IMG/VR virus record: IMGVR_UViG_3300030329_003597
Location: 266 to 64,265 of that record
Strand: one strand, 5' to 3'
Origin: a virus
Length of the DNA: 64,000 nucleotides
Notes under the pieces: generated by a model
What the model saw: the letters and a program-made list of their open reading frames with translations, nothing else
Database searches by the model: none
What the model was told of the DNA's origin: nothing
Made by a program: the position numbers and the translations under genes
Shown: piece by piece, positions 12,674 through 54,131 of the stretch
Layout: the number at the start of each line of letters is the position of its first letter
Numbering within the stretch: position 1 is the first letter of the stretch

Positions 12674-12817
12674 ATGAAACCTACTAAAAGTAAAGGTCTT
12701 GGCGATACAATAGCTAAGATTACAAAAGCTACAGGTCTTAATAAATTAGCACCCAAAGATTGTGGGTGTAAAAAACGACAATCTAAATTAAATAAAATAT
12801 TTCCTTATAAAAAATGA
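12674..12817 (+). CDS. Small CGC-motif protein, 47 aa
   Basis: Forty-seven basic residues starting MKPTKSKGLGDTIAKITKAT, with DCGCKKRQSKLNKIFPYKK at the end. The DTIxKITxATG plus DCGCxxRxxxLNxxFP pattern recurs, as I remember, in Bacteroidota phages next to packaging genes. The paired Cys could bind metal. The stop overlaps the next ATG (ATGA). Confidence 0.8.
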   Translation: MKPTKSKGLGDTIAKITKATGLNKLAPKDCGCKKRQSKLNKIFPYKK

Positions 12818-13410
12818 AAACTTTACATTTGTTTGTTGTCGAATTAGAAAAAACGATCAACGACACTATTAAAACCGATTCTGGTTTAGAGCTTTATGTA
12901 GACAATAGATTTAACGAGTTTGAACATAGAGTTACTGAAGGGCCAGTAGTATGCGCCCCACGTAAATATAATACAGGAGTTAAAGAAGGCGATACTTTGT
13001 ATTTTCACCATTTAGTTGTGATTAATGAGGGTCAAGCATTAACTGGGCATGATAATCATTATTTAATAAAATATGATGATAAGCATACTATAAATAATCA
13101 GGCTATCGCATATAAATGTCAAGACACTGGAGAAATAAAGCCTTTAGCAGGTTGGTCTTTGTTAAAGCCAGTAGAGCAAGAAGCTGAAGTAGTTTCTGGT
13201 ATTATAGAAGTAATAAATACAGAAGATGAAAAGTTACCCACTAGGGGTGAAGTAGCTTTTGATGCGCCCTGGTTAGAAGAGCTGGGTGTAAAAAAGGGGG
13301 ATATAGTGGGTTTTAAAAAGAATAGAGATTATCGTATAAAAATAGATGATCAAGAGTATTACCGTACTCGTGCAGAAGATTTAATGTATATAATTGAGGA
13401 AAATGTTTGA
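12814..13410 (+). CDS. Tandem GroES-like co-chaperonin
   Basis: One hundred and ninety-eight residues that read as two GroES/cpn10-like halves. Residues 1-115: LFVVELEKTINDTIKTDSGL, EGPVVCAP, VKEGDTLYFHH and a YLIKYDD strand follow the cpn10 order (start strand, mobile loop region, G.V...P, V..GD.V.F). Residues about 125-198 repeat it: GIIEV, TRGEVAFDAP, VKKGDIVGFKKN and IDDQEYYRTRAEDL. Phage co-chaperonins (T4 gp31 and marine phage examples) refit host GroEL to fold capsid protein. Duplication in one chain is unusual. Fold assignment is by eye. Confidence 0.6.
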   Translation: MKTLHLFVVELEKTINDTIKTDSGLELYVDNRFNEFEHRVTEGPVVCAPRKYNTGVKEGDTLYFHHLVVINEGQALTGHDNHYLIKYDDKHTINNQAIAYKCQDTGEIKPLAGWSLLKPVEQEAEVVSGIIEVINTEDEKLPTRGEVAFDAPWLEELGVKKGDIVGFKKNRDYRIKIDDQEYYRTRAEDLMYIIEENV

Positions 13411-13940: not shown

Positions 13941-14287
13941 TGGCTTATAAAAATAAAGAAGATCAAGCTGCAGCCTCTAAACGGCATTATGAGAATAATA
14001 AAGAGAAGGTAAAAGCTAGGTCTAAAAAAAGAAATATTAGACAAAGAGATATAAATAGAAAATACGTAGAGGATATAAAAAAGAAATCCAGCTGTATAGA
14101 TTGCGGTGAATCAAATCATCTTGTTTTAGATTTCGATCATATAGGAGGTGATAAATATAAATGTATATCTAATATGGTTTACGAATCTTACAGTATAGAA
14201 ACAATACAAAAAGAAATAGATAAATGTGAAGTTAGATGTTCTAACTGTCATAGAATAATTACATATAATAGAAGAAATGAAAAATAA
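13940..14287 (+). CDS. HNH endonuclease
   Basis: One hundred and fifteen residues. A basic helical N-terminus is followed by a zinc-type HNH core: Cys52-x2-Cys55, LDFDHIGGDK (His67), then CEVRCSNCHRI with Cys100, Cys103 and His104. HNH proteins beside the large terminase are common and can assist DNA cleavage during packaging; a stand-alone homing role is also possible. The ATG overlaps the previous stop and the end overlaps the next gene by 11 nt. Confidence 0.85.
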   Translation: MAYKNKEDQAAASKRHYENNKEKVKARSKKRNIRQRDINRKYVEDIKKKSSCIDCGESNHLVLDFDHIGGDKYKCISNMVYESYSIETIQKEIDKCEVRCSNCHRIITYNRRNEK

Positions 14288-14510
14288 AATTGGTTATTTA
14301 TTTGTAGGCTTATTTTGGTTTTTAATCATAGGTTTACTTACATCTTGCTCTGTGCAGAATCATCATAGACGATCTCAGGCTAATGATTACAGTCAATGCT
14401 GGTGTATTGATCCATGGGATGGTGGCGCAGAATGGTGTTGTCCTGGAAGAGAACCTAAATATATGTCCCCTTATAAACATAAGAAAGGTTACACTAAAGC
14501 ATCATTCTAA
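14277..14510 (+). CDS. Phage lipoprotein with TKASF C-terminus
   Basis: Seventy-seven residues. A hydrophobic leader (YLFVGLFWFLIIGLLTSC) ends in a clear lipobox with Cys24 as the lipidated residue. The mature part has several more Cys and Trp (CWCIDPWDGGAEWCCPG) and ends GYTKASF. It should be anchored in the periplasmic or outer-membrane leaflet. Roles could include superinfection exclusion or envelope disruption (inference). Placement between HNH and TerL is odd for an envelope protein. Confidence 0.75.
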   Translation: MKNKIGYLFVGLFWFLIIGLLTSCSVQNHHRRSQANDYSQCWCIDPWDGGAEWCCPGREPKYMSPYKHKKGYTKASF

Positions 14511-22959: not shown

Positions 22960-23373
22960 ATGGCAACGACTACGGCAACAATTACACTAAACAGTCCTGA
23001 TATTACTGGGGATCCTTTAAGCTTGACTAAAACGTCAACTTTAACAAAGGCTGGTACTGCTACTGGTTTAGATCAATTTACTGGGATTACTACTGTCATA
23101 TATGCTGCTGCACAGACAGCAACTAATATTGTAGCTGCTGCTGATTATGCTGATACTACTACTTCTCATAAAGTATATATAAAGAATTCTGCAGAAGGGG
23201 CTAGTGATTTTGTTACAGTAGAACTTGGAGGTAGTAATGTATTTATGGGGAGGCTCTATCCTGGGGATTGGTGCTTTTTTCCTTATGATGGAACATTAGA
23301 TGTGGATATAGACACTAGTGCTGCGGGAATGAAAGTTGAATATGGGGTTTTCTCACAATCAGCAGCATCATAA
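22960..23373 (+). CDS. Tandem beta-rich structural protein, copy 1
   Basis: One hundred and thirty-seven residues. Starts MATTTATITLNSPDITGDPL; core SHKVYIKNSAEGASDFVTVE, then GRLYPGDWCFFPYDGTLDV and VEYGVFSQS. Copies 2 to 4 follow with the same order of motifs. The protein-level similarity with diverged third codon positions indicates an old duplication. Location upstream of scaffold and capsid suggests head decoration or head-fibre subunits (inference). Confidence 0.75.
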   Translation: MATTTATITLNSPDITGDPLSLTKTSTLTKAGTATGLDQFTGITTVIYAAAQTATNIVAAADYADTTTSHKVYIKNSAEGASDFVTVELGGSNVFMGRLYPGDWCFFPYDGTLDVDIDTSAAGMKVEYGVFSQSAAS

Positions 23374-23384
23374 TAATATAAACT

Positions 23385-23795
23385 ATGGCAACAACTACAG
23401 CGACATTAACTTTAAACAGCCCAGATATTACGGGTCACAATTTTAGTATGACTCAAACGGCTACGCTAACTAAAGCTGGCAATTCATCTGGATTAGATGA
23501 GTTTACTGGTATTACTAGTAGGATTTATTCTGCAGCTCAAACTGATACTGTTGTGGTTGCTGACGCTAATTATGCTTCTACTACTGTAGCGCATAAGGTT
23601 TACATTAGAAATACAAGTACTGGAACAAGTGATTATATTCTTGTAGAATTAGAAGGAAACGTAATTATAGGGAGACTTTATCCAGGGGACTGGATGTTTA
23701 TACCATATGGTGGTACTCTTGACGTACAAGTAACTACTGTTGCTACTGGGGTGACTATCGAATATGCTGTTTTCTCTCAATCCATAGCATCATAA
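23385..23795 (+). CDS. Tandem beta-rich structural protein, copy 2
   Basis: One hundred and thirty-six residues, clearly homologous to copy 1 along its whole length: same MATTTATLTLNSPDITG start, AHKVYIRNTSTGTSDYILVE core, GRLYPGDWMFIPYGGTLDV and EYAVFSQS end. Intergenic spacers of about 11 nt are also similar (ATAAACTATGGC), so the whole unit was duplicated. Confidence 0.75.
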   Translation: MATTTATLTLNSPDITGHNFSMTQTATLTKAGNSSGLDEFTGITSRIYSAAQTDTVVVADANYASTTVAHKVYIRNTSTGTSDYILVELEGNVIIGRLYPGDWMFIPYGGTLDVQVTTVATGVTIEYAVFSQSIAS

Positions 23796-23807
23796 TATAT
23801 ATAGATA

Positions 23808-24551
23808 ATGGCAACAACAACCGCAACAATTACATTATCTAGTACTGATTTGACTAGTAACAGCCTTAACTTATCTACAGAATCTGTATTAACAAAGGCT
23901 GCGACAATTACTGGTATATCAGATACTACTGGTTTAGCACGAAGGACTACATCTTACGCTAGTTCGGGCGTTATTGATACCGTTGTACTTTATAGAGCTG
24001 ACGACTATACTGCTAATAAAGCTAATAAGGTTTATATAAAAAATATGTCATCGACTTCTGCAGAATATTTTACGATTTATTTAACCGCAGATAGAGCTGG
24101 TGAAACTCATTCTGATGTTGATGGACTTACTGAAATAGGTAGGCTGTATGCAGGTGATTGGGCTTTCTTCCCATGGAGTGCTGTTGGCGGAACTAAAGAA
24201 GCCTTTACGGTAACTTTTGCAAATACATGGGCAGCTGGCGATACTTTTACATTTGACGGAGTTACTGTAATATCTGCAGGATCTGGATTGAATGAAATGG
24301 CTGCTGGAGTAGACGCTGCACAATTTCCTAATTGGACAACATCAGTATCTAGTGCGGTAGTTACATTTACTTCTAGATACTCTAGAGCTGATCTAGAGAT
24401 TGATACTAGCGAGGCAGTTACAGTTACGGCTGGAGACGGAACGGGAGCTGTAGCAACTACTGTTACTGGAACAAAATCTGTATCAGATATATATATTAAA
24501 CCCAGTGTTCATACTGAGATGACGTTTGAGCATATGTTATTTTATGAATAA
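23808..24551 (+). CDS. Tandem structural protein, copy 3, with inserted domain
   Basis: Two hundred and forty-seven residues. Homologous to copies 1 and 2 up to GRLYAGDWAFFPWSAVGGTK, then about 95 extra residues (from AFTVTFANTWAAGDTFTFDG to about VATTVTGTKSV) before the family ending VHTEMTFEHMLFYE. The insert resembles beta modules of tail or fibre proteins, with its own VDAAQFPNWTTSVSSAVVTF segment. So an extra domain was spliced into a loop near the end of this paralogue. Confidence 0.75.
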   Translation: MATTTATITLSSTDLTSNSLNLSTESVLTKAATITGISDTTGLARRTTSYASSGVIDTVVLYRADDYTANKANKVYIKNMSSTSAEYFTIYLTADRAGETHSDVDGLTEIGRLYAGDWAFFPWSAVGGTKEAFTVTFANTWAAGDTFTFDGVTVISAGSGLNEMAAGVDAAQFPNWTTSVSSAVVTFTSRYSRADLEIDTSEAVTVTAGDGTGAVATTVTGTKSVSDIYIKPSVHTEMTFEHMLFYE

Positions 24552-24970
24552 TGGCAACAATTAAAGCAAATTTATCATTAACTAGTGCTGGGGTTTTAGC
24601 CAGTCCTCTTAGTATTTCTCAGGAATTTTCATCGTCTGTTGATTCTGGCAGCCTTATTAAAGCAAAAGTAAAGGGAACGGCTGTAGATACTAATGACATG
24701 ATTGTATATCTAGCTAATGATAAAAGCGACAGAGCTTATTTATATATAAGGAATAATGAATCTGAATTAGAAAACTATATATATTTACGCAACGAAACTG
24801 AAAGCGATTCAGCTTTTGCTGCTAAAATTGGTGGCGGTGAGTTTGCTTTTATTCCTCTTGCCCCAGATAAAACTTATGCTGTACACGCTACAAGAGAAAA
24901 TACTATTATTGAGTACGGCGTATTCGGAAACGACAATCCTTCTGTAATCCTTGGAGGTTCAGGAACATAA
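24551..24970 (+). CDS. Tandem beta-rich structural protein, copy 4 (divergent)
   Basis: One hundred and thirty-nine residues, the most divergent of the cluster but retaining the order: MATIKANLSLTSAGV start, RAYLYIRNNESELENYIYLR core, GGEFAFIPLAPDKTYAV and IEYGVFGND. Its ATG overlaps the previous stop. Confidence 0.7.
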   Translation: MATIKANLSLTSAGVLASPLSISQEFSSSVDSGSLIKAKVKGTAVDTNDMIVYLANDKSDRAYLYIRNNESELENYIYLRNETESDSAFAAKIGGGEFAFIPLAPDKTYAVHATRENTIIEYGVFGNDNPSVILGGSGT

Positions 24971-43780: not shown

Positions 43781-43808
43781 ATATGGACGAAGAAGAAATT
43801 TTACAATA
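43781..43808 (+). repeat. 28-bp exact repeat spanning a start codon, copy B
   Basis: Covers the start of the 1737-residue internal virion gene and is identical to 6580-6607. Sequence diverges at once on both sides. Confidence 0.85.
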
Positions 43809-46800
43809 CATTCAAGATCAGCGTGACAGCGGAGTAGACGACGATAAAATCGGTATGCAGCTGCAGATGAAAGGTGTTGCTGATTTTGACACGTACTTAA
43901 AAAAAAAAGACGATACTTCGATCTCGCCCTCTGCTTCGGAAGGGGAAGGTACGGAATCAGAGCAGATTACAAGTCAGCAAACAGGACAAGGAGCTGGTTC
44001 TTCGGTTGTACCTGTAACTCAAGATGATCCTACTGTAAATACTATTGCTAGCGGCGAGCAAGACTCGTCTACTAATTCTATTACTGGTCAGGTAATAACT
44101 CCTTGGACAGACACCCCTGAAAATAGAGCGAGATTAGAGATCGATCCAATGCATTATGACGGTTTTCAAAAGGGTGCATTTATAAAAACTATGGAGGTGT
44201 TAGATCCACAGTATATAACGCCAGAGATAGAGACATACTTTCATAATTTCGTTTCATCTAACGACTGGTGGTGGAATTCAGTAGGGGCTAATGTCAATGG
44301 TATAGCTGAAGAGCTTGCAAAAAATGAAGAATATCTATCTGCAAACGACATAAGCGTTCCTATGTTGGGAACACCAGTAGCAAGTCCTTATGGAGCTTAT
44401 GCTCCACCTCGTAGTGAAGAGGATATAATGTTTGATAAAGTTGCTGCTGTAAAAAAACTTTTAACGCAAAATATTAATGACAGTGCTGTAGATCTTTTAC
44501 AATCTAGAATGCCTGCTGATATAAAGGAGAGCAAAGAAGCGCAGTTATATATGGAGCAATTTATGTTAGAAAATTATGGGGCGATGCTAGATCTAACTGG
44601 GGAAGGCGAAATAGGTAATACTCCTTTTCTTCAGTTTGATGGGTGGCAACCTAGCACATATTATGGCGCTGCAGGTGGCCCAGGATTTAGGCCTAAATTT
44701 TCTGGGTATTTGGTAGATAGATATGATGCTGCAGGTATTGATTTAATAAATGGAATTTATAATTTCTTTGGTGGGGATGCGAAAACAGTAGTTGAAAATC
44801 GAGAGATTGCTGAAAAAATACGTGCTAATACGCTTCAGTTTGAAACTACTATGGTTGGCAGTTTTACAGATGGAGAGTTTTTGAGAGGGTTAAAACAAAT
44901 GACAGGATTTGTAGCTGAAGCGACCCCAGTTATGTCAATATTAATACCAACTGCTACAGTTACTACAGTTGCTACTGGTGGGGTTGCTGCTCCATGGTGG
45001 GTTACGGCGGGCCTAATAGGTTTAGAAGGAGCAACATTAAGTACAACAATTGAAGCCGCTAGAACTCGTGAACACCCTATGTTTAAGAGGTATACGAAAG
45101 ATGGGGTGACTATAGGGTATTATGAAATGATGGAGGCTACTGGTGGTGATCCAGAGCTTATGGCTCAGTATGAATACAGCTTTGATGATTCAGCAAGATT
45201 AGGTCACTTAAGTACTGTCTTTGGAACTGACTTTGTTGCTTCAGGAGTTACATCATTCTTTTTCTTTAAAGCATTAAAAGGCGCTACAACTCCAAAAAAT
45301 ATAGGGCCTAATATGAATAGCTGGTGGAATGCTCACCTTGCAAATATGGGTTATTCTGTACCTATTAATAGCGTAACTTCTTCTACCGCAGCTATGGTTC
45401 AATATATGAGTTTGAATCCAGATGCCACTCAAGAAGAAGTTTTTGAAGTTGGATTAGATGTAGCCTTAGGTACTGTCCCTATAACGATAGGGATAACAGG
45501 GACTGGTTCTGCTATTAATTATGCTCATACAAAAGCTACAGTAGCAAATGCTTTAGCTAGAGACGCAGTTGGAAGAAATGGTGGTAATGTTAAAATACAT
45601 CAACAGCGTAAAGTGCTTTTAGAAACAATAAGAAAAAGCAAAGATCCAAATAGCGCTGAAGCAATAGCGGCTGAAAGGATGTTGGTTGATTTAGAAGAAC
45701 AAAGACTCAGCACTATGACTACTGATGAAAACTTCTATTTGAATATGGATCCAGAAGATTATCATGCTATTGTGGATTTACATAGGAGTTATAATAGTAA
45801 ACTTCGTCAATTAAATCAGCTTGATGATCCTGACTCACCTATAGGTAGAGCCTTACAAAAAGAGCTAAATGAAAATATACAATTAAGGCAAAATATAGAA
45901 AAGCTTTATGAGACGGACCCTGTTGTAGATGCAGATCCTACTTCACCTAAGCCAGATATATTTCAACCTACTATCGAAGGGCCTGATGGGAAGCCAGTAC
46001 CATTATCATTTACACCTGGACTATCTAAGTGGTGGTACGTTGAATTCTTTGATAAGTACGGTGATGTAAACATGCTACAAAGAAGTATTATGGAGGCTTT
46101 GGACACTGAAAACCAAGGTGCAAGACTTTCTTTAATGCAAGATTTTGAAGTGTTACAAAAGCTGTCTACCTCAAAAGCCGCTCATCAAATAGAAGAGATG
46201 GTAAATCTAAGATCTCAAGATGGTGGGCTGATAGATCAACTAAGGATTCTACAAAAAAATACACCTCAAGACCTTTATCAAAATCTACCAGAGGTATACT
46301 CTAAAGATATTATAGGCCTTTATGATAGGTGGGCTGTTTCAAAATTTGCTCCAGAAAGAAACAAGCAAATACTTGCTGATAATAAAACGGAACTTAATGC
46401 TTTAAAAGCAAAAGAAAAGCCAACTTCTGCAGACAAGAAACGAATGGCTTTTCTTGAAGAGAAAATTGCAGAAAGAAGAGGTAGTGGTATGGCTGATGAA
46501 GAAGCTGCAGACTTCTTAAATTCTTTACCTGAAGATTTGAAATTAGCTTTTGAAAAAGTTAGGGAGGAACACAGATCTATTCAGCAAAACACTAGAGACG
46601 CTGCTTTAGAGTATGGCTTTATAGATCAAGCTATGTACAATAAGCTTCAAGCTAACGCTGAAAACTACGTAACTCTTACTGGTGACGGCATGAAGTCTGT
46701 TGATGGTAGTATATCTCTAATTGATAATGATATAGTAGCATCTATCTTCCCACAAAAGTCTCAACAAGGGGGTGTACCTGATGGTTTAAGAAAAGCTTCT

Positions 46801-48996
46801 GGTCGTAGCGATGAAACAGGTAGTATATTAGGCAAGACTATAGATCAAAATACACAGATACATATAGCAGGGCAAAAGAATGTGGCTCTTAGGGGGTTGT
46901 ACGAGATGCTGCTAAACAATCCAAACTCTAAACATTATTCTATATCTGACCAAGGTAACTCGTCAGCTAAAAATACAGTAATGGTTTACGTAGATGGTCA
47001 ACAAAAGTTCATCACGTTTGCTAACGAGGCATACGCAAAACCTTTTAAGACTCAAGCCCCTAGCGATAATGAAGCATACGTTAGGTGGGTTCAACCTATG
47101 CAGAGGTTATTTAGTAATATACCAAAGATGTATACCCAATGGTCTACTTCATTCTGGGCAGGTAATAGTGCAAGAGACTTTCAAGGTTCTTTAGTAAACG
47201 CAATAAGTGCAGCAGAAAAAAAGTTTGGGTATGCTTTATATAACGCTGAAGGCAAACCTATAAATATAAAACAATTAGCAAAAGACTCTCACCTTGTAGG
47301 TAGAGGTGAATTCTTTAAAGCTTTTAAAGCTATTGCAGCCGATGAGTTTGGCCCTGGAAATAATTATAGGGGTGCAGATAATGCGCTATATCAAGAATAT
47401 AAAGCTCACGGAGGAAAAACTGGTTGGGCTTTTAGAACACCTTTAGAAGATCTTCAAAAAACATTACAAAGAGAAGTTGATTCTGGAGTAAAGGGTCAGA
47501 AAGCAACAGAGTGGATGTATAAAAATACATTTGGCCTTATTGAGTCTTTTAATAATACATTTGAAAACGCTTTTAGATTTCAAGTATATAAAGGTTTAAG
47601 AAATCAAGGTGTTGCCCCAGACTATGCCGCAGCTGTAGCAAAAGATGTAAGTATAGACTTTAATAGATCGGGTAATACTACCCCGATGTTAAGCTCTATG
47701 AAGTTCTTCTTAAACGCTAGTTTGCAAGGTGCTGACATGACTGTACAAACTAGTACTGCATTAAGACCTAAAGTAGATTTTGAGGGTAATGTAAGGAACC
47801 CTTGGCAGAGGATGACAAATTCTCAAAAAATTCTTGGAGGAGCTGTTGGGTTTACCTACATGTTAACTCAATGGAACCAAGGCGTTAGTGAAATAGATGA
47901 TGATGGAGTTTCTTTTTACGACAAAATACCTGATCAAGTAAAACAAAGAAATCTTATTATTATGCATCCTGGATCTCCAACTGGGGAAAGAACTCTTATC
48001 CCTAAGTGGTATGGATTTGGCACGTTCAATGATATGGGAATGATGATAGCTGAGGTTCAAAGCGGTGAAAGAAGCGCTAGTGATGCAGCTTGGTTTTGGG
48101 CTTCTTCTACTGTAACAAATATGTCGCCAGTACACTTTGGAGGTGTAGCTAGCGAAGAAGATCCTACAAAAGGTGTAGATCCAGTAGATCAGCCAGGACT
48201 TGTTATCGGGGCGTTATCTCAAGTAGATCCTTTAGCTCCTATTATTGATGTTGCTACTAATGTAGATGGTTTTGGTAATCAAATAGCTGCAGAAGATAAA
48301 CCTGGAGAAGCTAGATCTTCTCAGGGGTATGATTCCCCAATAGTTCTTGAACAGATCGCTCAGGTTTTAAATTCAGCCACTGGTGGTAGCGATGAGGTGA
48401 GTGGTGATATTGACTTCAATCCTGACAAATTAAATTACTTACTTCAAAATTATCTGGGTAGTACTTATATGATGTTTGGGGATGCTGCAGAAGGAATTTT
48501 AGAATTAGCAGCTGATCAAGACAATCTAGATACGTGGCCTATAATAAAAAAGTTCTATGATGAAGACTACGAAAAATCTGCTTATGGGAATTATTATTCA
48601 GCAAAACAAGTTGTAAATACATACTTGGCTGAATTTGGTAATATAGAAGATCTTCGTGAAAATAAAGATAAGCCTTTGCCGAGTCGTGACGAAAGACTAG
48701 CCGACTATGAAGCTGTAGAGGAAGAAGCGGGGAGTGCTAAACAGAGATATGGTTATGCTATGGCTATGGATGAAATATTTACAAAAATAGATGGTGATAT
48801 GCAAGAGATAACAGAAGCTAAAAAATTATTACAAAATAAACAAGACGCTTTAGAGTATCATATGTTCAATCTTGAAGTGGCAGATGAGTGGGGGGCGCTA
48901 GAAGATAAGATATACAAACTAGAGCTAGCTGAAATGGAATTAATGGAAAACGCATTAAAACAATATTATAAATTTTACAGAAAACCTGAAGAATAA
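43783..48996 (+). CDS. Giant internal virion protein with LPD38-like region
   Basis: One thousand seven hundred and thirty-seven residues. N-terminus MDEEEILQY is shared with the 6582 product. Hydrophobic stretches near 380-425 (SILIPTATVTTVATGGVAAP) and 555-575 could insert in membranes. Residues about 1105-1340 (FSNIPKMYTQWSTSFW, NSARDFQGSLVNAIS, SIDFNRSGNT, MKFFLNASLQGADM) resemble the large-polyvalent-protein-associated domain LPD38. C-terminal 100 residues are coiled coil. Likely ejected with DNA. No lytic or protease site was recognised. Confidence 0.65.
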   Translation: MDEEEILQYIQDQRDSGVDDDKIGMQLQMKGVADFDTYLKKKDDTSISPSASEGEGTESEQITSQQTGQGAGSSVVPVTQDDPTVNTIASGEQDSSTNSITGQVITPWTDTPENRARLEIDPMHYDGFQKGAFIKTMEVLDPQYITPEIETYFHNFVSSNDWWWNSVGANVNGIAEELAKNEEYLSANDISVPMLGTPVASPYGAYAPPRSEEDIMFDKVAAVKKLLTQNINDSAVDLLQSRMPADIKESKEAQLYMEQFMLENYGAMLDLTGEGEIGNTPFLQFDGWQPSTYYGAAGGPGFRPKFSGYLVDRYDAAGIDLINGIYNFFGGDAKTVVENREIAEKIRANTLQFETTMVGSFTDGEFLRGLKQMTGFVAEATPVMSILIPTATVTTVATGGVAAPWWVTAGLIGLEGATLSTTIEAARTREHPMFKRYTKDGVTIGYYEMMEATGGDPELMAQYEYSFDDSARLGHLSTVFGTDFVASGVTSFFFFKALKGATTPKNIGPNMNSWWNAHLANMGYSVPINSVTSSTAAMVQYMSLNPDATQEEVFEVGLDVALGTVPITIGITGTGSAINYAHTKATVANALARDAVGRNGGNVKIHQQRKVLLETIRKSKDPNSAEAIAAERMLVDLEEQRLSTMTTDENFYLNMDPEDYHAIVDLHRSYNSKLRQLNQLDDPDSPIGRALQKELNENIQLRQNIEKLYETDPVVDADPTSPKPDIFQPTIEGPDGKPVPLSFTPGLSKWWYVEFFDKYGDVNMLQRSIMEALDTENQGARLSLMQDFEVLQKLSTSKAAHQIEEMVNLRSQDGGLIDQLRILQKNTPQDLYQNLPEVYSKDIIGLYDRWAVSKFAPERNKQILADNKTELNALKAKEKPTSADKKRMAFLEEKIAERRGSGMADEEAADFLNSLPEDLKLAFEKVREEHRSIQQNTRDAALEYGFIDQAMYNKLQANAENYVTLTGDGMKSVDGSISLIDNDIVASIFPQKSQQGGVPDGLRKASGRSDETGSILGKTIDQNTQIHIAGQKNVALRGLYEMLLNNPNSKHYSISDQGNSSAKNTVMVYVDGQQKFITFANEAYAKPFKTQAPSDNEAYVRWVQPMQRLFSNIPKMYTQWSTSFWAGNSARDFQGSLVNAISAAEKKFGYALYNAEGKPINIKQLAKDSHLVGRGEFFKAFKAIAADEFGPGNNYRGADNALYQEYKAHGGKTGWAFRTPLEDLQKTLQREVDSGVKGQKATEWMYKNTFGLIESFNNTFENAFRFQVYKGLRNQGVAPDYAAAVAKDVSIDFNRSGNTTPMLSSMKFFLNASLQGADMTVQTSTALRPKVDFEGNVRNPWQRMTNSQKILGGAVGFTYMLTQWNQGVSEIDDDGVSFYDKIPDQVKQRNLIIMHPGSPTGERTLIPKWYGFGTFNDMGMMIAEVQSGERSASDAAWFWASSTVTNMSPVHFGGVASEEDPTKGVDPVDQPGLVIGALSQVDPLAPIIDVATNVDGFGNQIAAEDKPGEARSSQGYDSPIVLEQIAQVLNSATGGSDEVSGDIDFNPDKLNYLLQNYLGSTYMMFGDAAEGILELAADQDNLDTWPIIKKFYDEDYEKSAYGNYYSAKQVVNTYLAEFGNIEDLRENKDKPLPSRDERLADYEAVEEEAGSAKQRYGYAMAMDEIFTKIDGDMQEITEAKKLLQNKQDALEYHMFNLEVADEWGALEDKIYKLELAEMELMENALKQYYKFYRKPEE

Positions 48997-49430
48997 TGAG
49001 TAAGAAAAAAATAAAAGACACCAAGCTTGGCTCTTGGTTGGCAGAAAAAGCACCTCAAGTATTAGGTGTAGTAGGAGACCTTCTACCTGATAGCGGTGGA
49101 TTAGGCATAGTAAAAAACCTTATTGATCAAGACCCGAAAGTAGATTCTGAAGAAGCTCAACGCATCATTGATGCAGAGGTTCGCTTTCAAGAGAACGTCA
49201 CAGAGCGCTGGAAGGCTGATATGGGTAGTGATGTTAAGTTAGCTAAGATGATACGCCCAGTAACGCTTATATGCCTTATGGGTATGTTTATGATTACTAT
49301 GTTTATAGACAGTATGGATAACGTCGCATTTAACGTAAAGGACTCTTATGTATCTTTGCTTGAGCTACTTATGCTTACTGCTTTTGGTGCATACTTTGCT
49401 GGAAGAACTATAGAAAAGAAATCTAAATAA
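48996..49430 (+). CDS. Holin-type membrane protein
   Basis: One hundred and forty-four residues. A soluble amphipathic N-terminal half (KAPQVLGVVGDLLPDSGG, later RFQENVTERWKADMGSDVKL) precedes MIRPVTLICLMGMFMITMFI and a second span SLLELLMLTAFGAYFAGRTI, then a Lys tail. This layout matches the GTA-holin/superfamily III type, including the RxxxVTxRWxxDMxSD-type segment. It would permeabilise the inner membrane at lysis. Start and stop overlap neighbours by a few nt. Confidence 0.75.
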   Translation: MSKKKIKDTKLGSWLAEKAPQVLGVVGDLLPDSGGLGIVKNLIDQDPKVDSEEAQRIIDAEVRFQENVTERWKADMGSDVKLAKMIRPVTLICLMGMFMITMFIDSMDNVAFNVKDSYVSLLELLMLTAFGAYFAGRTIEKKSK

Positions 49431-51646
49431 TGATTCGCAAGCTACTGACAATCACTCTATTAGCCTTACTTACTTTAAGTAATGCTTTTGCTCAACCAGA
49501 TGATGCTAGTTGGGTAAATGTAACAATACAGACAGACAACTATGGTGGTGAATCATCGTGGGAGATCTTAAATAATGATAATATAGCAGTAGCAGTTAGT
49601 CCACCACTTCAAAACAATACTCTCGTTAACACAATGGTTTTTTTACCTGCTGGTGAGTATGTATTTGTTATGTATGATTCGTTTGGTGACGGTATATGCT
49701 GTTCCTTTGGGCAAGGCTTCTTTGGGTTAACAAACACTTGTGGGTTAGAAGAATTTAACTATGAATTTGATTCAGCTATAGATAGTATACCATTTGTATT
49801 AGAACCTTGTTTACCAGTATTGCTTGGCTGCATGAACGAAGCTGCGGACAACTACAACCCATGGGCTAATCAAGATGACGGTAGTTGTGAAATCGTTGAT
49901 TGCGACTCTCTCGAAACTCAAGTGTCTATGGAGTTAACGCTCGATACATGGCCTGGTGAAACTGGATTTACATTAGTTAATATAGCTAATGGTCAACCGT
50001 ATGAACAGGTTATACCTGGTGAGTTTGATTTTGGTGATCAGCTCATTACATACACCTATAACTTTTGTGTGTCGCTAGGTTTTGAATTAATATTGGTGGA
50101 CGAATATGGTGACGGATTAAACGGCTCTACTTCAGGAGGAGAAGATGGGGCTTGTGTTATAACTGCCTGTGATAGTGTTATATGGGAGTTAGAAGATTTA
50201 GCTTTCACAGAGTTCGATGATGGTAATACGATGTATTCTGGCGCTATTTTTACAGAGCCTTGTCCACCTGTACCTCCTATAGTGGGGTGTATGGATGATG
50301 ATTATGTAGACTATAACCCTGATGCAACAGCTCAAGACACCTGTATGACATTACACACATGGGGTTGCACAGATCCAGAAGCCATGAATTACGATAGTAC
50401 TGCAACAATAGACGACCTAAATAGTCCTTGTAGTATACAGATTATTCTAGAAGATGATGCTGGTGATGGATGGGGCATGTCTGGGATAGGTATGAAGCAA
50501 GGTGATCAACAATGGTTATTTACTGTAGGTCCTGGCGTATTTTTAGAGTCGTGGGATATTATGCTTGATTCAGACGAGGAGGTGGATATATATTATTTCC
50601 AAGATGGAGGTCAACAATCATCTGCTCAAGAGTTAGCATTCCAAACATTGCATAACTCTGTATATGCAATTAATCAAGCTGGGGATACTTTATTATCTGA
50701 AGGTTCTAATCCATTCTTAAATAATGGTCAAAGCGCTTTACAACCATTTAGCGCACCAGAATGGAAAGTGTATCATTTCACTCCGTATTGTGGAGATAGC
50801 TGCATACCTTATATATACGGCTGCACAGATGATACTGCTTGTAACTACGATGCTGAAGCTAATACAAATGTTGATTGCAACTATCCAGTACAGTATTACG
50901 ACTGCAATAACAGCTGTGTTAATGATTATGATGGAGACGGAGTGTGCGATGAGTTAGAGGTAGTAGGTTGTCAAGATCCGACTGCATTTAACTATAACTC
51001 AGCAGCTACAGATCCTGGAGAGTGTATCCCAGTGATATTTGGCTGTACTGATCCTACTCAGTTTAACTACAACCCAGATGCTAACACAGAAAACGGAAAT
51101 TGTATACCTTTTATATACGGTTGTATGAATCCAGATGCATTTAACTACAATCCAGATGCCAACACAGAACTTGAAGACTCTTGCATTGAAGTAGTGGTTG
51201 ATTGCATGGACCCTAACGCATTTAATTATAACGAATTAGCCAACACTCCTGATGAAGAAGCTTGCCTATATGATGCTGGATGTATTACAGGGCCTGGTAA
51301 TCCGTATTGGTACAACGATGGGTGCTATGCATGGATTATAGATATTGATCCATACTGTTGTGAAGTAGGTTGGGATGATACATGTGCAGAGTTATACTCA
51401 TATTGCGAGCAAGGTTGGCCACAAGGTGTATATGATATACATGATGTATATAATGTATATCCTAATCCTGTGGATGATATACTTTACATTCAATCTCCAA
51501 TAAATACAGAAGCTATTATATATAATTCTTTAGGGCAGATTGTTGTATCTTCTACTAAGGAAAAAAGAATTGACATGACTCATTTACCCAATGGTATATA
51601 CAATGTTGTCATTAATCATATAAATAAAATAATAATTAAATCATGA
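49430..51646 (+). CDS. Type IX secretion cargo with Cys-rich repeats
   Basis: Seven hundred and thirty-eight residues. A Sec signal (MIRKLLTITLLALLTLSNAFA) is followed by two beta domains (about 25-280), about eight copies of a 25-residue module GCxxPxAxNYNPxAN...C (for example GCTDPTQFNYNPDANTENGN), an EF-hand-like DYDGDGVCDELE, a Cys cluster (WIIDIDPYCCEVGWDDTC) and a C-terminal sorting domain: VYPNPVDDILYI, IIYNSLGQIV, HLPNGIYNVVI and IIIKS. That domain is the hallmark of type IX secretion substrates of Bacteroidota, which end up on the cell surface or outside. A phage using host type IX secretion for its own protein is unexpected. Probably host-derived. Confidence 0.85.
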   Translation: MIRKLLTITLLALLTLSNAFAQPDDASWVNVTIQTDNYGGESSWEILNNDNIAVAVSPPLQNNTLVNTMVFLPAGEYVFVMYDSFGDGICCSFGQGFFGLTNTCGLEEFNYEFDSAIDSIPFVLEPCLPVLLGCMNEAADNYNPWANQDDGSCEIVDCDSLETQVSMELTLDTWPGETGFTLVNIANGQPYEQVIPGEFDFGDQLITYTYNFCVSLGFELILVDEYGDGLNGSTSGGEDGACVITACDSVIWELEDLAFTEFDDGNTMYSGAIFTEPCPPVPPIVGCMDDDYVDYNPDATAQDTCMTLHTWGCTDPEAMNYDSTATIDDLNSPCSIQIILEDDAGDGWGMSGIGMKQGDQQWLFTVGPGVFLESWDIMLDSDEEVDIYYFQDGGQQSSAQELAFQTLHNSVYAINQAGDTLLSEGSNPFLNNGQSALQPFSAPEWKVYHFTPYCGDSCIPYIYGCTDDTACNYDAEANTNVDCNYPVQYYDCNNSCVNDYDGDGVCDELEVVGCQDPTAFNYNSAATDPGECIPVIFGCTDPTQFNYNPDANTENGNCIPFIYGCMNPDAFNYNPDANTELEDSCIEVVVDCMDPNAFNYNELANTPDEEACLYDAGCITGPGNPYWYNDGCYAWIIDIDPYCCEVGWDDTCAELYSYCEQGWPQGVYDIHDVYNVYPNPVDDILYIQSPINTEAIIYNSLGQIVVSSTKEKRIDMTHLPNGIYNVVINHINKIIIKS

Positions 51647-51843: not shown

Positions 51844-52025
51844 TGAAAATAGATTGGATAAACAGCTGGAACGCTGGAAACAAAAAAGAGAAGTATGAGA
51901 TTAATTTAAGATTAGGCACAGTGACTGTGCTTGAAATTTCATTTTGTCCATGCCCTAGTTGTGAAACAAAAGGACATTGTAAGAGATTTAGATTTATGAT
52001 TTTAAACTTTGGATTCGAGCTGTGA
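51843..52025 (+). CDS. Small Cys-containing protein, 60 aa
   Basis: Sixty residues with CPCPSCETKGHCKRFR near the C-terminal end, a possible metal site of four Cys and one His. It begins MKIDWINSWNAGNKKEKYEI, beta-like. Coupled on both sides by overlapping codons. Function unknown. Confidence 0.65.
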   Translation: MKIDWINSWNAGNKKEKYEINLRLGTVTVLEISFCPCPSCETKGHCKRFRFMILNFGFEL

Positions 52026-53095
52026 TGGTAGAACGAAAGGATCTTACTCCAGTTGTATATGCTCTAATAATGCTAGGGGTGTTTCTTCTTGCATCATTTA
52101 CAGCCAATGGACAAACTCTAAAAAAGACGTTTAAGTTTGCTACATTCTATACTGCCTTCAGTGGTGGTAACTCCATAGCTGATGATAACATATACTCTGT
52201 AACTAATGGGTTACAGACTGATGTATTAGAAACTCCTTTCGATTATTCGTTTACAGCTGGTGTTCGTAAGATTGCTAGGTTTGGGTATGAGAACCGAGCT
52301 AATGTATTCTATGATGGAACAGAGAAGTCTTATAGCGATGCTGCTACCATTGGTAAAGTAAAAGGGTTTGAATTCTTATTTGAAGCTGACTGGCGTAGAC
52401 AACAAGGCAGAAACTTTATTGATCAGGATTATTTCTTACGTTATGTAGCTAAAAACTGGATAGCTAAGGTTGAATATCTACAAGATGGGTTTGCCGATGT
52501 TGAGTATTTTGAGGGATCCCAAAGGCTTCGACTCAATGCTAATGATAAACTTAGCTTTAATATTGGGGTGGCTCAACGTATATCTGAACCATATGGGTAT
52601 AATCCTTTAGAAGAATGGGTGTTGTCAAATAATAACATACACTATACAAGTCTTGCTATACAAGAGGGGTATACTGTAGATGTACAAGCTGGTGAATATT
52701 TCTCTCCAGACGGTGAGCTTGTAGCTAATAGTGTTGATGTATGGGAGCAGGTTGTTATACCTGAAGTTATTGATGATTATGTTGCTAGAAAAAGAAATGA
52801 ACTACCTAATGTATGGAACTATTCTGTAGTTGTTGGGTATGATTACTATAAGTATTCTAAAGAATTTTGGATGCACAATTGGGTAAGTGTAATGCCTTAT
52901 CATCTTAAGACAGATGACGAGTATTCTTACTTTGAAACCACCGAAGGGGGGCAATGGCTAGATTACGGCGCAGGCCTTATCTTTGGGTGGAGATTAAACA
53001 AGAGTCTTGGTGTGTTTTTAGAGGGAAAATACAATAAGTATTGGAATCGAGAATGGCATGACTTCTCAGTTGGATTAAATTACGTAATATTATAA
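52025..53095 (+). CDS. Outer-membrane beta-barrel-like protein
   Basis: Three hundred and fifty-six residues from the ATG at 52025 (a GTG 3 nt earlier is in frame). A short cytoplasmic head and hydrophobic signal (VVYALIMLGVFLLASFTANG, then Q) is followed by alternating amphipathic strands rich in Tyr, Phe and Trp (FEFLFEADWRRQQGR, RLNANDKLSFNIGVAQR, WNYSVVVGYDYYKYSKEF) and the last strand HDFSVGLNYVIL. This pattern is that of an outer-membrane barrel. A phage barrel could alter the receptor surface, block superinfection or weaken the outer membrane for lysis. Function is inferred. Confidence 0.6.
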   Translation: MVERKDLTPVVYALIMLGVFLLASFTANGQTLKKTFKFATFYTAFSGGNSIADDNIYSVTNGLQTDVLETPFDYSFTAGVRKIARFGYENRANVFYDGTEKSYSDAATIGKVKGFEFLFEADWRRQQGRNFIDQDYFLRYVAKNWIAKVEYLQDGFADVEYFEGSQRLRLNANDKLSFNIGVAQRISEPYGYNPLEEWVLSNNNIHYTSLAIQEGYTVDVQAGEYFSPDGELVANSVDVWEQVVIPEVIDDYVARKRNELPNVWNYSVVVGYDYYKYSKEFWMHNWVSVMPYHLKTDDEYSYFETTEGGQWLDYGAGLIFGWRLNKSLGVFLEGKYNKYWNREWHDFSVGLNYVIL

Positions 53096-53792: not shown

Positions 53793-54131
53793 ATGAAACA
53801 TTTAATCTACATATGTTTATTTGCAATGACATCTCTTGGTATGACTATACCAGATTCAGGAGTATGCGTCGTTGAGTTTAACGCAAGTTTTAACTCAGCA
53901 AATAGTGTTGATTGGATTGATGAGTTGAGTGATTGTAAAGGGAAGAGGGTGGATATTGTTGCTAGCCCTGAATTACAAAAAGAACATAAAATTGTAGTAG
54001 TACCTACTGTTATCGTGTTTAACGATGGGGAAGAGGTGGAGAGATTTCAAGCAAACATCATGATGCAGCTTGAAGCAACGAAAGATGAGGTTCAGGAAGC
54101 GGTTGATGAAATTATAATGAGTGCATTCTAA
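53793..54131 (+). CDS. Secreted thioredoxin-fold protein lacking CxxC
   Basis: One hundred and twelve residues. Signal-like start (MKHLIYICLFAMTSLGMT) then VCVVEFNASFNSANSVDWID, where a thioredoxin would have its WCxPC site; the cysteines are absent. KIVVVPTVIVFNDGEEVERF keeps the cis-Pro VPT and the following strand. So a redox-inactive thioredoxin-like chaperone or binding module in the periplasm is likely. Fold by pattern only. Confidence 0.6.
   Translation: MKHLIYICLFAMTSLGMTIPDSGVCVVEFNASFNSANSVDWIDELSDCKGKRVDIVASPELQKEHKIVVVPTVIVFNDGEEVERFQANIMMQLEATKDEVQEAVDEIIMSAF

Follow-up and report, generated by a model that had tools for sequence, protein, structure and literature searches.

A predicted type IX secretion cargo and a putative outer-membrane barrel of a new family form a conserved module in uncultivated Bacteroidota phages

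We describe a phage gene that bears all the sequence marks of a type IX secretion system (T9SS) type A cargo, namely a signal peptide and a sorting domain (CTD), and that is kept beside a gene for a predicted outer-membrane (OM) beta-barrel of a new family. The gene lies in a 64,000-nucleotide stretch of viral DNA, hereafter the window, which comes from the 66,675-base virus record of a tailed phage. Gene-order comparison revealed that the cargo, barrel, transmembrane (TM)/coiled-coil and thioredoxin (Trx)-like genes, of which the cargo gene is the first, form a constant group in otherwise changing genomes. We tentatively suggest, at somewhat less than an even chance, that these genes are a mobile, widespread cassette in which the host T9SS places a Cys-rich protein, coupled to the barrel, at the cell surface, and that their products may form a late envelope-spanning surface complex that resembles no lysis or exclusion system described so far.

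Export signals of the cargo

The cargo gene, taken from the list of open reading frames (ORFs) and its translation, starts with ATG and encodes a 738-aa protein (Table 1). Its N terminus, MIRKLLTITLLALLTLSNAFA followed by Q, is by eye a textbook signal peptide, and the Sec signal claimed by an earlier sequence-only reading of this DNA was borne out both by this inspection and by a hydropathy rule. Signal-peptide calls were made throughout with this simple rule and by eye, the rule having at least one false positive, the terminase. It selected 6 of the 87 ORFs in the window, four of which, the cargo, barrel, TM/coiled-coil and Trx-like genes, belong to one operon; the remaining two were a 77-aa putative lipoprotein near the terminase and the terminase itself, which is clearly a false call. 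The lipoprotein gene (14277–14510; lipobox LLTSC) stands just before the terminase gene and is the only other clearly exported product by the hydropathy rule. Among full-length cargo homologs, 62 of 65 had an export-type N terminus, or an internal start, by the same rule, and signal peptides were seen by eye in two of the three that the rule missed. A stricter rule that required an AxA–Q site passed 42 of 66 cargo homologs and was judged too strict.

The C terminus had been read as a T9SS sorting domain, and a search with the type A profiles agreed, with matches above the curated cut-offs for both TIGR04183 (E = 8e-7, 28.9 bits against a cut-off of 23) and PF18962 (E = 9e-9, 35.9 bits against 27). 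A profile built from 14 cargo homologs matched, by sequence, CTDs in the PDB (8glk_D, E = 8e-5; 8glj_D, E = 2e-3; 7pzj_A, E = 2e-7). The AF2 blocks over aa 681–738 were predicted to be all-beta with a pLDDT of 67–85, which fits type A CTDs. The cargo has the signal peptide and the YPNP, G, GxY and terminal K motifs in common with T9SS type A cargos (TIGR04183/PF18962; PDB 8glk and 8glj CTDs), from which it differs in being phage-encoded, in lying in a late operon and in that its secretion is predicted. PF18962 scored above its cut-off in 18 of the 18 records with cargo homologs that were searched. A protein with a Sec signal and a CTD passes through Sec, its CTD is recognized and the host translocon delivers it to the surface. 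Judged from its sequence, the cargo is very probably exported by the host T9SS.

Table 1 Features of the cargo gene and its neighbourhood in the window; best barrel loci are the best 79 from at least 560 confirmed viral stretches
Feature	Position	Strand	Description
Holin-like gene	48996..49430	+	phrog_3427, E = 3e-22; stop overlaps cargo start
T9SS cargo gene	49430..51646	+	738 aa: signal peptide aa 1–21, beta-rich segments, Cys-rich repeats, sorting domain aa 676–735
Sec-type signal peptide MIRKLLTITLLALLTLSNAFA	49430..49492	+	Predicted cleavage before Q; sequence by eye and hydropathy rule
Cys-rich G/DC...NYN/NYD repeats, n = 8	49826..51268	+	aa 133 to about 613 (translation)
Type A sorting domain (CTD)	51455..51634	+	aa 676–735; TIGR04183 and PF18962 above curated cut-offs
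Small ORF, 66 aa	51643..51843	+	Translationally coupled to cargo (ATGA); in 18/79 best barrel loci
Small ORF, 60 aa	51843..52025	+	In 28/79 best barrel loci
OM beta-barrel protein, 357 aa, new family	52022..53095	+	Signal-peptide-like N terminus; predicted from model and Foldseek
TM and coiled-coil protein, 94 aa	53098..53382	+	Single TM helix followed by a coiled coil (by eye)
Lys/Arg-rich protein, 131 aa	53385..53780	+	Within operon; not conserved with module
Periplasmic Trx-fold protein, CxxC cysteines replaced	53793..54131	+	TIGR01068, E = 3e-4

The cargo body

The Cys-rich NYN repeats noted in the sequence-only reading are present in the translation as eight units of the GC/DC-x-NYN type, five of them in an unbroken or almost unbroken row at about aa 464–612. 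Across 15 homologs the cargo body is under strong purifying selection (pN/pS 0.17–0.26), and both the signal peptide (0.71) and the CTD (0.52) lie above it, as expected for parts in which recognition alone is needed. The CTD is thus the fastest-changing part of the cargo after the signal peptide, yet its core residues P678, N679, P680, G702, G722, Y724 and K/R737 are retained in 69–73 of 74 distinct tails from the barrel loci. We quote pN/pS instead of dN/dS because synonymous sites are near saturation, and dN/dS medians are unreliable.

AF2 gave a pLDDT of 42 over the whole cargo, with the part outside the CTD poorly modelled, and for the body AF2 and Foldseek together yielded nothing usable. 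One reading of this body is that of an adhesin or aggregation factor, through which infected cells or their debris would stick to cells or particles and bring new hosts to the progeny. Such a role would be in keeping with the relatives of the repeat: searched alone, it matched almost exclusively Flavobacteriales/Bacteroidota metagenome-assembled genomes (MAGs), and in the Flavobacteriales MAGs similar Cys-rich repeats reside in large secreted proteins. Segments resembling E-set carbohydrate-binding domains can also be seen by eye in some cargos (L091, L104 and L125), and cargo homologs differ in repeat number. Pfam, however, classified none of the body domains, and no adhesin or carbohydrate-binding family matched; we regard this reading as quite unlikely.

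A probable late operon

The sequence-only reading took the cargo gene for a phage gene within the lysis/late module, and both parts of that claim stand. Terminase, portal, holin and other phage genes surround the cargo, the terminase and portal matching phrog_6681 and phrog_6547. The terminase is 42% identical to those of Flavobacterium elemo phages and 48% identical to that of an uncultured podovirus, and it has matches in 105 phage records, each of which either is a Bacteroidota phage by name or gives no host. Immediately upstream, the holin match holds, and the holin stop and the cargo start share one base (TAATG). Between 48996 and 54484 neighbouring genes either overlap or have gaps of no more than 12 bases, an arrangement that fits a single late transcript, and the genes from the holin to the Trx-like gene would thus be co-transcribed late in infection.

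The last gene of the module encodes a Trx-like protein that scored 20.8 bits with TIGR01068, below the cut-off of 96.8, and in 15 homologs N or S replaces the active-site Cys so that both CxxC cysteines are gone. The candidate assignment as a thioredoxin proper was rejected on both counts. As a side observation, Trx-fold proteins without the CxxC cysteines are conserved with the module, and a non-catalytic chaperone for the Cys-rich cargo is possible.

Several other features of the window were recorded. Upstream of the holin gene, 43783–48996 encodes a 1737-aa protein with an LPD38 polyvalent-protein domain that matches very large phage proteins. Four tandem, probably paralogous genes whose products begin MAT (137, 136, 247 and 139 aa) occupy 22960–24970 in the head region; they cross-match in related phages and may encode decoration or head-fibre proteins. 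Upstream of the terminase gene, 12814–13410 encodes a 198-aa protein with a C-terminal Cpn10/GroES domain, and the related elemo and Manatee Spring phages have annotated GroEL/GroES genes.

A putative outer-membrane barrel of a new family

The model of the barrel protein is barrel-like (pLDDT 56), and its Foldseek matches are OM barrels in general, which only supports the designation of a predicted outer-membrane barrel and nothing finer. The nearest of its predicted viral neighbours, a 342-residue viral protein without a name, is 23% identical to it. Searches of Pfam and NCBIfam assigned the barrel to no family and gave weak, scattered matches. Known barrel, defence and anti-defence families were likewise considered and set aside, weak scattered matches being all that they returned. 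Within the family, the mean column identity is 69% (31 diverse members).

The T9SS itself employs OM barrels, PorP/SprF and PorV, that work with its cargo, and sprF adjoins its cargo gene sprB, much as the phage barrel gene stands next to a cargo gene. The phage barrel nevertheless shows no recognizable relation to them by profile: PorP/SprF (PF11751) and PorV (PF19572) were not supported as identities, there being no Pfam or NCBIfam match and hhalign probabilities of 3% and 0.6%, respectively, whereas the positive control linked PorP/SprF to PorV at 94% in the same set-up. PorV and PorP/SprF are encoded in eight of eight Flavobacteriales genomes tested, six of which are repeat-carrying MAGs; the repeat points to this order as that of the candidate host.

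Conservation of the module

Cargo homologs 64–83% identical to that of the window occur in 20 other virus contigs, and the barrel was confirmed in at least 560 viral stretches, of which the best 79 barrel loci were used for locus counts. Among these 79, the cargo gene is present in 76, the coiled-coil gene in 76 and the Trx-like gene in 73. The cargo end lies within 400 bp of the barrel in 70 of 76 loci and at 403–430 bp in five more; in the remaining locus, L081, the order is reversed and the cargo comes behind the Trx-like gene. The coiled-coil gene adjoins the barrel in 74 of the 76 loci in which it is present. Of 50 barrel records, 44 had a PF18962 match at E ≤ 1e-3 and 33 had one that exceeded the cut-off; three of the remaining six (L125, L128 and L136) have cargo homologs in which the tail, though decayed or weak, can be recognized. 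When contigs were instead selected by their terminase, barrel and CTD were found together in seven of seven that were at least 50 kb long; shorter fragments were often without both, as fragments may be.

At least three loci (L223, L225 and L226) keep the barrel and coiled-coil genes without a cargo, L223 and L225 with the Trx-like gene as well. The cargo is therefore not strictly needed for the role of the others, and the barrel and coiled-coil protein look like an inner core of which the cargo is the usual, not the obligatory, partner. No cultivated relative of the cargo, barrel or coiled-coil protein was found in 50,697 phage records, nor did divergent barrels used as queries find one there; a generic sorting-domain query, of limited sensitivity, returned uncultured phage contigs only.

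Some loci depart from the common arrangement. L094 (5523–8980) and L097 (5286–8980) carry two successive genes with T9SS sorting-domain tails before the barrel, the second tailed protein being a different secreted protein of about 461–521 aa that starts MKKLLAIAMMAMSFCSLSQPDLVV in L094. In L125, L134 and L136 the cargo frame extends upstream into an 80–90-aa Lys-rich phage protein (KAKRTPSHPKKSH...SAAYWANKVKW), which is a separate gene in L223, so that either a fusion or an internal start may be present.

Movement and position of the module

Divergence was compared in 31 loci that bear terminase and portal genes. Cargo and barrel diverge together (rho 0.64), as do terminase and portal (0.71), whereas the correlation with the terminase is 0.04 for the cargo and 0.28 for the barrel. 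Physical linkage alone would account for part of the cargo–barrel correlation, but given the little tracking of the terminase, the module appears to travel between related phages and therefore to move as a cassette. It occurs as well in much larger, RNR-encoding or otherwise different phages: in L138 it is found in a 122-kb contig with DnaB, RNR and QueC genes, and L224, described below, is a further case. A separate observation suggests recombination within the cargo gene: towards the end of the sorting domain the cargos of the window and L004 lack the same four residues, although in its body L004 is most similar to L005.

In the phage of the window and in some others the module comes after the holin, and in further phages it comes after the portal region. 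This second position bears on the idea that the cargo is a virion structural protein with a CTD-like domain that serves assembly instead of secretion. The cargo is indeed conserved, late and sometimes adjoins portal and head genes, but nearly all of its homologs have a Sec-type signal peptide, its companion genes are envelope-directed too, its CTD retains the T9SS core residues, and it matched no PHROG structural family, nor any PHROG at all. A place in the particle is thus very improbable.

The main rival to surface remodelling, which is set out below, is a lysis or egress module in which the holin, the coiled-coil protein, the barrel and the exported Cys-rich protein would loosen or break the OM and surface coat, replacing spanins. 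Besides the overlap of the cargo start with the holin stop and a timing that fits late genes, the module has a holin homolog nearby in 29 of the best 79 barrel loci, often directly upstream of the cargo. In L224, a phage-like contig from the bin of a Flavobacteriales genome (cargo CTD, 50 bits), the order is small holin-like protein (by eye), cargo, barrel, coiled-coil protein, Trx-like protein and Amidase_2/peptidoglycan-binding endolysin. The 94-aa coiled-coil protein also has an i-spanin-like topology and weak hits on phage lipoprotein, holin and spanin profiles. Its spanin match is, however, far from significant (phrog_739, E = 0.5), and a spanin pair of coiled-coil protein and barrel was rejected for want of a significant match and because the partner is a barrel and not an o-spanin lipoprotein. 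Moreover, the module follows terminase/portal genes in 28 of the best 79 barrel loci, and a 700–1000-aa Cys-rich repeat protein with a T9SS tag would be an odd lysis effector. We consider a lysis role unlikely; the late, holin-linked position nevertheless keeps it a serious rival, with adhesion third.

Origin of the cargo

The domains and repeats of the cargo are of Flavobacteriales type, which might point to a moron, that is, a recently captured host gene, or to bacterial DNA wrongly classed as viral, in either case without a part in the phage cycle. Against this, phage genes flank the cargo, dozens of virus contigs have the same gene order, and the purifying selection on the cargo is strong. 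The barrel was found in 2 of 396 Flavobacteriales genomes, both times on a contig that also bears RNR and further genes of phage type, and no full-length cellular homolog of the cargo was found at the sensitivity of a pattern scan. Recent capture and bacterial contamination are thereby largely refuted and, in our estimate, extremely improbable. The cargo body was probably assembled long ago from parts of host surface proteins and is now a phage family.

Discussion

We propose that the phage makes a surface protein late in infection. Sec would carry the cargo to the periplasm, where the host T9SS would recognize its CTD and deliver the multi-domain, Cys-rich body to the cell surface, where it would stay attached or be released. 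There the cargo would act with the phage OM barrel, the membrane-anchored coiled-coil protein and the non-catalytic Trx-like periplasmic protein, a cooperation of cargo and barrel that their linkage suggests. The surface of the dying cell may thus be remodelled, its surface structures being covered or blocked, such that sister phages would not adsorb to the infected cell or be wasted on debris. Taken whole, from T9SS export through cooperation of the module to late surface remodelling, this explanation falls just short of an even chance in our judgement.

Shielding or remodelling of the surface against adsorption, as the function itself, is argued by analogy and we hold it to be possible, though distinctly under an even chance. 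Flavobacterial phages need gliding/T9SS-dependent surface proteins for adsorption (PMC13288928; PMC9233685), and surface masking would therefore have an obvious target. The logic is that of T5 Llp, an envelope protein that blocks FhuA and stops phage adsorption to infected cells and lysed fragments (PMC9586334). Llp differs from the cargo in being a small periplasmic lipoprotein, the product of an early gene, with an unrelated export route. Because superinfection exclusion proteins are usually early (PMC9586334), the position of the cargo in a late/lysis block counts against shielding. Three further points tell against the explanation as a whole: the barrel shows no recognizable kinship with known T9SS barrels, the models of cargo and barrel are weak, and some loci have the companion genes without a cargo.

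T9SS cargos have precedents in phages. Cryophage (Bellas et al. 2020, PMC7468147) has genes with T9SS type A sorting domains like that of the window cargo, whose products were proposed to be exported by the host, possibly for superinfection exclusion. Those cargos (endoglucanase, GH39, PA14) are variable, flexible genes in one phage, whereas the window cargo is one conserved family that belongs to a core module with an OM barrel in many phages. Proteins with BACON and T9SS domains occur in crAss-like cluster 2 phages (PMC6949934, 2019), which share with the window cargo the sorting domain and an origin in Bacteroidota phages; their body domains differ, they are encoded upstream of head genes and they are not known to be accompanied by a barrel module. 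What appears to be new is the core, barrel-linked module, of which we found no description in the openly licensed literature, a result that is not proof of absence.

The phage T9SS cargos in the literature that was searched are scattered or variable, whereas the type found in the window belongs to the late core genes of a large set of uncultivated Bacteroidota phages. Its fixed place beside a new family of predicted OM barrels implies an investment by the phages in the outside of a cell that is soon lysed, and the four-gene unit is concrete enough to test for masking, lysis or adhesion. The host T9SS is a common target of phage-resistance mutations. If the proposal is true, this system would serve phages for export as well as entry, and the module would point to an unstudied way for phages to rebuild the surface of the cell that they are killing.
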